64,000 nt of DNA, taken from Negativicutes bacterium (GTDB lineage: Bacteria; Bacillota; Negativicutes; Veillonellales; Veillonellaceae). Under the pieces are notes generated by a model. It was not told the origin of the DNA. It did not search any database and was given only the letters and a program-made list of their open reading frames with translations. The stretch covers positions 1 to 64,000 of the forward strand of contig SAAC01000002.1 in NCBI GenBank assembly GCA_009929605.1, in the 5' to 3' direction. The position numbers were made by a program, and so were the translations under genes. Each line of letters begins with the position of its first letter. Within the stretch, counting starts at the first letter, position 1. Shown here piece by piece: positions 21,583-54,148 of this stretch.

Positions 21583-21671
21583 TGGTGCCGAGGACCGGAA
21601 TCGAACCGGTACGGTTATTTCTAACCGACGGATTTTAAGTCCGTTGCGTCTGCCTGTTCCGCCACCCCGGC
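21583..21671 (-). tRNA. tRNA-Leu (anticodon TAA)
   Basis: This class II tRNA has a 7-bp acceptor stem (GCCGGGG/CCTCGGC), an anticodon loop CTTAAAA and a long variable arm. The CCA end is encoded. It is the last gene of the five-tRNA transcript. Confidence 0.95.
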
Positions 21672-21695
21672 ATGGGTAACGTTAGTATGTAATTA

Positions 21696-21770
<75 letters not shown>

Positions 21771-21782
21771 ATAGTGGAATAA

Positions 21783-21857
21783 TGGAGCGGGAAACGAGAT
21801 TCGAACTCGCGACCCCCGCCTTGGCAAGGCGGTGCTCTACCGCTGAGCTATTCCCGC
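21783..21857 (-). tRNA. tRNA-Gly (anticodon GCC)
   Basis: The acceptor stem GCGGGAA pairs with TTCCCGC, the anticodon loop is TTGCCAA, and CCA is encoded. Confidence 0.95.
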
Positions 21858-21864
21858 ATGTACA

Positions 21865-21940
<76 letters not shown>

Positions 21941-21949
21941 ATACATAAA

Positions 21950-22025
21950 TGGCGACCCCGATCAGATTTGAACTGACGATCTTCGCCGTGACAGGGCGAC
22001 ATGTTAACCGCTACACCACGGGGCC
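21950..22025 (-). tRNA. tRNA-Asp (anticodon GTC)
   Basis: The acceptor stem starts GGCCCCG, the anticodon loop is CTGTCAC, and CCA is encoded. It is the first tRNA after the promoter at 22045-22073. Confidence 0.95.
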
Positions 22026-43563: not shown

Positions 43564-44671
43564 CTAAATAGATAGGTTTGCTTCTTTTTTCAAAAAGCCT
43601 TCCATAAATTGATCAATATTACCATCCATTACAGCTTGTACATTGCCGGTTTCAACACCCGTACGATGATCTTTCACAAGGTTATATGGATGAAATACGT
43701 AGGATCGAATTTGACTACCCCACTCAATCGCCTGGTAGGTACCCCCAATTTGCTCTTTTAATTCTGCTTGCTTCTCTAATTCTAATTCAAATAATTTTGC
43801 ACGTAACAAACGCAAACATTGTTCTCTATTCTGTATTTGAGAACGTTGAGATTGACATTGTACCACAATACCAGTTGGTCTATGTGTCATACGAACAGCT
43901 GAATCAGTTTTGTTAATATGCTGACCACCAGCACCACTAGCACGATATGTATCAACTTGAACATCCTTCATATCAATGTTAATTTCTACATTATCATCAA
44001 TTTCAGGCATGACATCTACCGCCGCAAATGATGTATGACGACGAGCAGCTGCATCGAATGGAGAAATCCGGACAAGACGATGAACACCTTTTTCAGATTT
44101 CATATAACCAAAAGCATTTTCACCTTTAATTAAGAATGTGGCACTCTTAATACCAGCTTCATCACCTGGTTGTTCATCCATCAATTCTACGCCATAACCT
44201 GATTTTTCAGCCCAACGCAAATACATACGGATGAGCATAGAACACCAATCCTGTGCCTCGGTACCACCAGCACCAGCATGAAAAGTTAAAATCGCATTAT
44301 TTTGATCATATTCGCCACTCAACAACAAGAGTATCTCTTGTTTTTCTACAGATTCTTCAATTTGTTGTACATAATCGGATATTTCTTTTTCCATGGAAGC
44401 GTCATCTTCTTCGATAGCCATATCTAACATTAATCGAGCATCTTCCACATCTTGAACTAGCTGTTTATAACCATCAACTGCATTTTTTAATTGTGTTGCT
44501 TCTTGTGAAATTTCACGAGCTTTATCTGGGTCATCCCAAAAAGTAGGATCACTCATTTTAACATCTAATGTAAAGATTGTATCTTCCTTCTGAGCGATGT
44601 TAAAGTGAATCCCTCATTCCATAAATTCGTTCTTCCAGATTATCAATAATTGGTTTTAAATCATCTAACAA
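43564..44671 (-). CDS. prfB: Peptide chain release factor 2, expressed by +1 programmed frameshift
   Basis: RF2 recognises UAA and UGA. The main frame (44601-43564) holds the codon-recognition region with SPF (VRISPFDAAARR) and the catalytic GGQ in RASGAGGQHINKTDS. The first 23 codons (44671-44603) lie in another frame. They start at a TTG with GGTGGTG 7 nt upstream and read LLDDLKPIIDNLEERIYGM, then RDSL and a stop at 44600-44602. Skipping one T joins CTT to AAC and gives 368 residues, the family norm. The slip site is CTT TAA C, with GAGGG 5 nt before it. The usual site has TGA, not TAA. Confidence 0.92.
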
Positions 44672-44766
44672 TTTATGTCACCACCTTTATATGCTATTAA
44701 TAAACCCCGCCTAAAAAGGCTATTATATATCCTCAAAAATATATATGTAAAAGTTATGTAAACAAG

Positions 44767-44817: not shown

Positions 44818-47253
44818 TTAATCTATGTTTTGTGGCTCCAACACATCATCATGGTGGGTTTGTGCACCTTCTAAATGATCAACTGGTTCTTCAACTGACT
44901 CTACGAATTCTGCACGAATGCGGTACAAGGCCATGATTGTTTCTTCTTGAATCGACTCAATCATATTCTGGAACATTTCATAGGCTTCAAATTTATATTC
45001 TACCAATGGATTTTTTTGTCCGTATGCACGAAGACCAATACCTTCACGCAACATATCCATATTATCCAAATGTTCCATCCATTTTCTATCCACAACGCGT
45101 AGCATGATAGCTTTTTCTAATTGGGTCATTAATACGTCACCCAATAAGTTTTCTCGTTCTTTATATTCAGAATGCGCCAAATCCAATAATTTTTCTTCCA
45201 AATCTTGACGGCTGTATTCTTCCATATCTTCAGGAGACAAAATTTCTTTCGTCAAGAAATATTGACTCAAATGAGTATATAAGCCTTCATAATCCCATTC
45301 TTCAGGATATAATTTTTCATTGGCATAAGTATCCATAGATTCTACTACGATCTTATCGATCATAGTTTCAATAGTTTCGCGTAAGGATTCATTACCTAAA
45401 ATGCGACGACGTTGTTCATATAAAACTTCACGTTGTTGATTCATAACATCATCATATTCCAAAATATATTTACGAATATTGTAGTTATGATCTTCAACTT
45501 TTTTCTGCGCTTTTTCAATGGATCGAGTAATCAAGGAATGTTCGATTGGTTCATCTTCTTCCATACCTAATTTGTCCATAATACCAGAAATATTATCGGC
45601 ACCAAAAATACGCATCAAATCATCTTCCAAGGAAAGGAAGAATTGAGATGAACCTGGGTCACCTTGACGACCAGCACGACCGCGCAACTGGTTATCAATA
45701 CGACGGCTCTCATGACGTTCTGTACCAAGAATCGCTAAGCCCCCAATTTCAGGTACACCTTCACCTAATTGAATATCTGTACCACGACCAGCCATATTAG
45801 TGGCAATCGTTACCATTCCCATTTGACCAGCTTGTGCTACTATTTCAGCTTCTTGTTCATGATGTTTCGCATTTAATACGCTATGAGGAACACCACTGCG
45901 CTTAAGCATATCACTAAGCTCTTCAGATTGAGTAATAGATGTAGTACCAATCAATAAAGGTTGTCCTTTTTTATGACGTTCTACAGCATCTCTTACAACT
46001 GCACGATATTTAGCAGCCTTAGTTTTAAAAATCAAATCAGGCATATCTACACGAGCCAATGGCTTATTTGGAGGAATTTCGTATACCTCTAGGCCATAAA
46101 TATCATTAAATTCTTTTTCTTCCGTTTTAGCTGTACCAGTCATCCCCGCCAATTTTTCGTACATACGGAAGTAGTTTTGGAATGTAATAGACGCTAATGT
46201 TTGACTTTCACGTTCTACTTTTAATCCTTCTTTAGCTTCAATAGCTTGATGTAATCCATCAGAATAACGACGTCCAAACATTAAACGACCTGTAAATTCA
46301 TCAACGATAACAACTTCGCCATCTTTAACTACATAGTCTGTATCACGATGCATCATCGTATGAGCACGTAAAGAAGCACCTAACAAATGATTCAATTCAA
46401 TATTTTCAGCATCATACAAATTTTCGACACCTAACATTTTTTCTACTTTAGCTATACCAGAATCTGTAGGAGCAATCGTTTTTTGTTTTTCATCAATTAC
46501 GTAGTCTTCTTCAGCATTCAAATGAGGTACAATTTTAGCTAATTTATAATAATTATCTGTAGAACGTTCACCAGGGCCGGAAATGATTAATGGCGTACGC
46601 GCTTCGTCAATCAAGATAGAGTCTACTTCATCGACAATAGCATAATTCAATGGCCGTTGCACCATATGAGCGGCCTCTGAAACCATGTTATCACGCAAAT
46701 AGTCAAAACCAAATTCATTATTTGTACCATATGTAATATCACAACTATACGCCATTTTACGTTGGTTGTAATCAAGATTGGCTACGATTAGCCCCACAGA
46801 TAAACCTAAAAATTTGTATAATTTCCCCATCCACTCGCTATCGCGTGTAGCCAAATAATCATTAACAGTAACAACATGAACACCTTTACCTGTTAACGCG
46901 TTTAAATACACTGGTAGTGTACCTACCAATGTTTTACCTTCACCAGTACGCATTTCTGCAATATTACCACGGTGCAAAGTAATACCACCAATTATTTGTA
47001 CATCAAAATGGCGCATACCAAGAACACGTTTAGACGCTTCGCGAACTACAGCAAACGCTTCTGGTAGGATATCATCCAAAGTTTCACCTTTCGCTAAACG
47101 ACGTTTAAACTCATCTGTTTTAGCAACTAGGTTTGTATCACTTAATTTAATGTAATCAGATTCAATGCTATTAATATGATCAATAATTGTGCGCATTTTT
47201 TTAATTTCTCGAGCGCTATTATTTCCGAGAAGACGTTGGACAAAGCCGAACAA
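44818..47253 (-). CDS. secA: Preprotein translocase ATPase SecA
   Basis: SecA drives secretory proteins through SecYEG. Visible features are Walker [30 protein letters not shown] (Walker B), the preprotein cross-linking region at ~225-360, [14 protein letters not shown], and the C-terminal helical scaffold. The start is taken as the TTG at 47253, with GAGGGAG 9 nt upstream, giving 811 residues with the usual [12 protein letters not shown] opening. The C-terminus ends [10 protein letters not shown] and lacks the zinc-binding CxCx8CH tail that binds SecB in many species. prfB follows. Confidence 0.96.
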
Positions 47254-47301
47254 AAAAATCAACTCCCTCAAAAGGACATTTCACATTATTATATTCAATT
47301 A

Positions 47302-53940: not shown

Positions 53941-54142
53941 GTTATACGGCTGACCTGGTCTTTGCCCCCACACTCGCCTGCTGGAAGGTTCGCTCATAAG
54001 TCTTAGACTCCCCACTACTACTTCTCTCGGTTTTTCCGGCAGGACTTACATCTAAGCCGCACCATGCTCACAGTCCCTTGGACTGCTTATGTGGATCGTT
54101 TTGCCTGCGACTGGCTTCGACTTGCAACCACAGACCCGTATA
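53907..54142 (-). ncRNA. Structured non-coding RNA of about 235 nt, family not certain
   Basis: A promoter at 54149-54178 and the terminator at 53907-53940 frame a transcript far richer in GC than its flanks. No ORF in it looks like a protein. Helices visible by eye include a closing stem GGTCT..TTGC with GCAA..AGACC (4-nt bulge), a hairpin CAGTCC-AAG-GGACTG, and CCTGC pairing with GCAGG. TAAGTC/GACTTA crosses TTAGA/TCTAA, so a pseudoknot or alternative folds are possible. The 3' part reads GGTCAGCCGTATAACAGGC. It lacks tmRNA, RNase P, SRP and cobalamin-switch signatures. The raiA-motif RNA is my leading guess and 6S RNA the alternative; neither was verified. Confidence 0.72.
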
Positions 54143-54148
54143 TTAAGA

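Follow-up and report, generated by a model that had tools for sequence, protein, structure and literature searches.

UAA in place of UGA at the RF2 frameshift site throughout a family of Negativicutes, with UAG versions in separate lineages

Frameshifting in prfB, the gene for release factor RF2, serves as the textbook example of translational autoregulation. Of the three stop codons, UGA is read by RF2, UAG by RF1 and UAA by both. The UGA sites of E. coli and B. subtilis have an early in-frame stop, a slippery CUU U, an SD-like element upstream, a C after the stop and, in the +1 frame, the body of RF2; the locus described here has all of these, but its stop is UAA rather than UGA. UAA at this position is already in print: in the available portion of Prince et al. 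2025 (PMC12421855), 98.6% of 8,164 motif-bearing genomes carry UGA and 1.4% UAA, with no TAG. The same portion states that TAA is not fixed broadly within clades, and takes the absence of UAG as a sign that RF2 feedback is the universal purpose of the site. Two observations made here go beyond that report: a family in which UAA is uniform, and the occurrence of UAG.

The window (the whole stretch of DNA analysed, 64,000 nucleotides) carries prfB on the minus strand, with an ORF upstream that we take, from its resemblance to SecA, to be secA (Table 1). Read on the minus strand, the context of the shift site is GGA ATG AGG GAT TCA CTT TAA C. According to an initial sequence-only reading, the first 23 codons of prfB end at CTT TAA C, RF2 resumes in the +1 frame and GAGGG lies 5 nt upstream of CTT; every one of these parts is where that reading had placed it. 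Dropping the T at 44602 gives an open RF2 frame that starts at AAC (44601-44599), and this open frame, together with the anatomy, supports the claim of an RF2 frameshift cassette in which UAA replaces UGA. We class the site as a minority variant of the prfB +1 frameshift and not as a typical member. Elsewhere the window contains a raiA RNA (RF03072; a strong match of 197 bits at 53941-54144, minus strand) and a cluster of five tRNA genes (21586-22025, minus strand).

Table 1. Features of the prfB locus, in window coordinates.
Feature	Position	Strand	Basis
prfB ORF1: TTG start (44671-44669), 23 codons, TAA stop	44600-44671	-	read from sequence
SD-like AAGGTGGTGA ahead of the prfB TTG start	44678-44687	-	read directly; start chosen by a simple script
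Internal SD-like GAGGG, 5 nt spacer to CTT	44611-44615	-	read from sequence
Slippery CTT T (CTT at 44605-44603)	44602-44605	-	sequence; identical in 60/60 sites of the order
Gating stop TAA where TGA is usual, followed by C at 44599	44600-44602	-	sequence; TAA in 28/28 family genomes
+1-frame RF2 coding region with SPF and GGQ: 345 codons, then TAG (43566-43564)	43564-44601	-	
Presumed secA, upstream of prfB	44818-47271	-	ORF of 817 aa

The site was compared across related genomes, with one genome per species. CTT TAA C is found in 14/14 genomes of the window's genus and in all 28 genomes of its family (f1), and is thus neither a chance occurrence nor specific to the strain; an assembly error or a change in a single strain is ruled out by the 27 further family genomes that carry the same TAA. 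Across the order the shift site was recovered in 60 of 61 genomes, the sole exception being one that is 75% complete (G034) and yields no RF2 match at E<=1e-100. The other 60 each have a single RF2-like match at this threshold, so the gene with the shift site is the only RF2 found in them. By family, the stops are 28 TAA in f1, 16 TAA and one TAG (G053) in f3, 10 TGA and one TAA (G039) in f2, and four TGA in f4. The uniformity of UAA in a family of 28 genomes, and in 16/17 genomes of f3, differs from the picture of a stop 'not broadly fixed' given in the accessible text of Prince et al.

A class sample of 300 genomes added, from beyond the order, 20 that have TGA at the site, one that has TAA (G179, L095) and two whose gene is in frame (G221 and G243); these counts were read from printed pattern matches and cover only genomes with an RF2-like match to the pattern, chance matches having been removed by eye and a match kept only if its +1 frame reads as RF2. 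In the two in-frame genes (L079 in G243, L080 in G221; family f18) the distance between CTT and the DPxFW region is 71 nt, compared with 70, and the extra base puts TTG GAC or TTA GAC in frame, with no shift needed. The frameshift has apparently been lost in these two genomes. A further f18 genome (G201) has two different RF2-like TGA shift sites, on contigs C52 and C89, which would point either to a second copy of prfB or to an assembly of mixed origin. Among 200 genomes of a Lachnospiraceae-like family, 78 genuine matches, with the stops sorted by eye, comprised 71 TGA, six TAA and one TAG (G304); in the 398 genomes of the corresponding phylum, the genuine non-UGA sites beyond G304 among the matches listed had the coordinates of G046, G049 and G053. 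Non-UGA prfB sites are rare overall and clumped by clade.

Directly before CTT stands GGGATTCA (44606-44613 in the window), which is the same in 60/60 sites of the order; its TCA is invariant, yet no more than 7-12% of the serines in these genes are encoded by TCA. The duplex of the window's SD-like element with the 16S tail, the latter read in 5/8 other genomes tried and not from the window's own assembly, is computed at -12.1 kcal/mol, against -10.7 kcal/mol for the E. coli motif. In the computed duplex GATTC could lengthen the SD-like pairing, to GGATC of the 16S tail, and a UAA genome that has AGGTGATTCA (G526, L186) would pair without a bulge at -14.3 kcal/mol. The internal run in the window is AGGG at 5 nt from CTT; the published prfB consensus, as given in the available part of PMC12421855, approaches AGGGGG at 3 nt. 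The computed value is -8.9 kcal/mol in each of the f3 UAA, f3 UAG and f2 UGA sites: with duplex strength alike across the three stops in f3 and f2, the cassette itself shows no adaptation to UAA. Using a simple start picker, prfB begins with TTG in 25/28 genomes of f1 (the window among them), GTG in 17/17 of f3 and ATG in 15/15 of f2 and f4 combined; within the order, weak prfB starts accompany the non-UGA families and ATG goes with f2 and f4.

The sequence-only reading put UAA down to one G-to-A change, giving Asn where relatives have Asp. This understates the matter: UAA is family-wide and old, its gain, or its loss in favour of UGA, has happened more than once within the order, and the relatives with Asp are those of other families, 0/28 genomes of the family itself having TGA and Asp. 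In a protein tree of 76 RF2 rows f1 is monophyletic (100/98) and f3 clusters with f2 and f4 (98/89). Within the order, an ancestral UAA with reversions to UGA and three separate gains require an equal number of changes; ancestral UAA would be favoured, with weak support, by the position of the TAA gene L095, which branches beside the order (92/45). The tree carries a long-branch warning, and so nothing further is rested on it.

Conservation of the codon can be set against the background of the gene. In the 28 family prfB genes 3/41 invariant Lys/Glu/Gln columns keep a single third base and 1/65 fourfold columns is invariant; synonymous sites, purine third positions included, are saturated. UAA never varies in these genes although UGA and UAG would also stop, and a crude yardstick for both such sites staying invariant by chance is about (3/41) squared. 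Any such change would also alter AAC (Asn), the +1 codon, and selection to keep that codon may likewise explain the invariance. Among the six UAG genes of the Fimimorpha-like group described below, 11/62 columns are invariant, and the same yardstick says little there.

UAG sites were sought in a collection of 84,980 species with the pattern GGG-N5-CTTTAGC, required to lie at one set distance from the conserved [D/E/Q/N]Pxx-W region, a strict criterion that makes the counts lower bounds. Fifteen stretches matched; eight were dropped as chance matches, and the remaining seven are prfB genes whose RF2 body is complete. Six of the seven belong to a Fimimorpha-like group of Lachnospiraceae (L110, L116, L119, L121, L122 and L123) and the seventh to Acetivibrio sp. 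MSJd-27 (L115). The f3 genome with TAG (G053) is an additional case, outside the 15 stretches. In the Fimimorpha-like group 21 of 41 genomes matched, with 6 TAG, 2 TAA and 13 TGA. UAA relatives stand beside each UAG case: G506 adjoins the Fimimorpha-like UAG genomes, G526 adjoins MSJd-27 (four genomes, two with a match), and 16/17 genomes of f3 are UAA relatives of G053. This would fit a path from UGA through UAA to UAG, in which single changes stay within the stop codons.

Reassignment of UAG was considered and rejected: in 20 to 100 kb per genome, screened with a simple ORF picker, UAG ends ordinary ORFs (16/87 in G053, 6/38 in G304, 2/13 in G301), and RF1 with its motif is present. Loss of RF1 as a cause was likewise rejected for the window's genus and for the seven UAG genomes of the scan, in which RF1 is present (a set that does not include the RF1 of G053). 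Our literature search, with most subscription papers outside it, found no report of a natural UAG at an RF2 shift site or of the RF2 site of this genus; in the available text of one review (PMC5009743) UAG comes up solely in connection with engineered versions used to test the shift site.

Both release factors retain their recognition elements. SPF and GGQ occur in 76/76 RF2 rows, and the P.T motif of RF1 in 21/21 RF1 loci examined, including 14/14 in the window's genus. By established specificity the UAA of the window's cassette is readable by RF2, the window's copy of which has SPF; the earlier suggestion that UAA lies open to both factors agrees with this specificity and with the RF1 of the genus, and the consequence drawn from it, feedback on both factors or a weaker feedback, is plausible. 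In the window more genes end in UAA than in either other stop (36/56 picked genes). Genes ending in TGA number 5/56 in the window, 33/69 in G035 (which has a TGA site) and 20/72 in G041; with so few genomes and lineages compared, we claim no link between the identity of the stop and genomic UGA usage.

The order to which MSJd-27 belongs has a distinctive arrangement. Four of its nine genomes have a recognisable site (one TAG, three TAA), and in these same four prfA starts 1, 2, 2 or 12 nt behind prfB. RF1 lies behind prfB in 11/118 loci with at least 300 nt downstream, all 11 from these four genomes, and in 0/39 UGA loci; the 118 loci often overlap or repeat a genome, and the counts are not independent. 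With a match in 4/9 genomes of that order, the link between non-UGA stops and prfA rests on one clade.

The reading we favour, and consider somewhat probable, is a programmed +1 frameshift gated by UAA, through which RF2 synthesis would follow the combined capacity of RF1 and RF2, and in the UAG versions that of RF1. What is observed is the anatomy, the conservation across the family, the intact recognition motifs of RF1 and RF2 and the existence of UAG sites; from these we infer frameshifting itself in these organisms and the factor that sets its rate. On reaching the end of ORF1 a ribosome would pause, its tRNA-Leu paired with CUU and its A site holding UAA; it would then either be released by RF1 or RF2, or slip a single base onto UUU and go on to synthesise RF2. 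With a UAA gate, RF2 would be made according to the total of RF1 and RF2 rather than RF2 alone; feedback specific to RF2 would be weaker, being buffered by RF1, and a shortage of RF1 would also raise RF2. UAG gates elsewhere would respond to RF1. When RF1/PrmC is depleted in B. subtilis, ribosomes queue at UAG, and when RF2 is depleted they queue at UGA; neither depletion causes a queue at UAA (PMC8073009, in its accessible part), which suggests that RF2 feedback via UAA would be buffered by RF1. As a more tentative extension, the stop in prfB may be an evolvable choice of sensor (UGA for RF2, UAA for RF1 and RF2, UAG for RF1), with the RF2 shift in the order of MSJd-27 gating both factors by coupling. 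If true, an RF2 frameshift with translational coupling in that order would constitute RF1 autoregulation, of which, in the available text of Lalanne et al. 2021 (PMC8073009), the authors knew no report.

A plainer account is that the site performs ordinary RF2 autoregulation, UAA being terminated mostly by RF2 and hence nearly equivalent to UGA. The window's RF2 reads YRASGAGGQ, and in the light of what is available of PMC5373646 we interpret this as the efficient variant, with Ala at the residue that corresponds to E. coli position 246. RF2 is argued to be the main reader of UAA in the accessible portion of Prince et al. 2025 (PMC12421855). We nonetheless regard this account as rather unlikely: it offers no explanation for UAG sites, where RF2 should be unable to terminate, and UAA showed no queue when RF2 was depleted in B. 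subtilis (same portion of PMC8073009).

Neutral drift among stops appears more doubtful still. Here the SD-like element and CUU U would be enough for the shift with any stop, and the loop would be weak or lost. Clumping of non-UGA stops by clade speaks against drift, as does the invariance of UAA in 28 f1 genomes despite saturated synonymous sites, although selection on the Asn codon could also account for the latter; drift is nevertheless in keeping with the lack of a fitness effect when prfB autoregulation was removed in P. fluorescens (available part of Lim et al. 2026, PMC13245932), with the scattered occurrence of UAA across the Lachnospiraceae-like family (6 of 78 genuine sites) and with UAG beside UAA in the Fimimorpha-like group. 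Least credible by far is that there is no frameshift at all. A 330-codon ORF does begin at ATG 44556, from which RF2 might be made, but this ATG has no SD-like sequence ahead of it, and a start there would remove the protein's conserved N-terminal part and give no reason for the cassette having been kept; a TAA created by assembly error would have had to recur in 27 other genomes of the family.

Family-wide UAA and the separate UAG lineages are natural variants for testing, by a one-codon swap, whether RF2 feedback is the purpose of the site, and they point to a possible circuit that balances RF1 and RF2. With the UAA variant, as the available text of Prince et al. presents it, the window has in common CTT TAA and a stop that RF2 can read. 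With the UAG variant (G053, the Fimimorpha-like group and MSJd-27) it shares the cassette, its position and the GGGATTCA CTT before the stop, but the UAG stop is specific to RF1, and an RF2-readable stop is what the UAG sites lack. The window's own site is an unusual variant that has already been described; the UAG sites and the prfB-prfA pairs are the more surprising.
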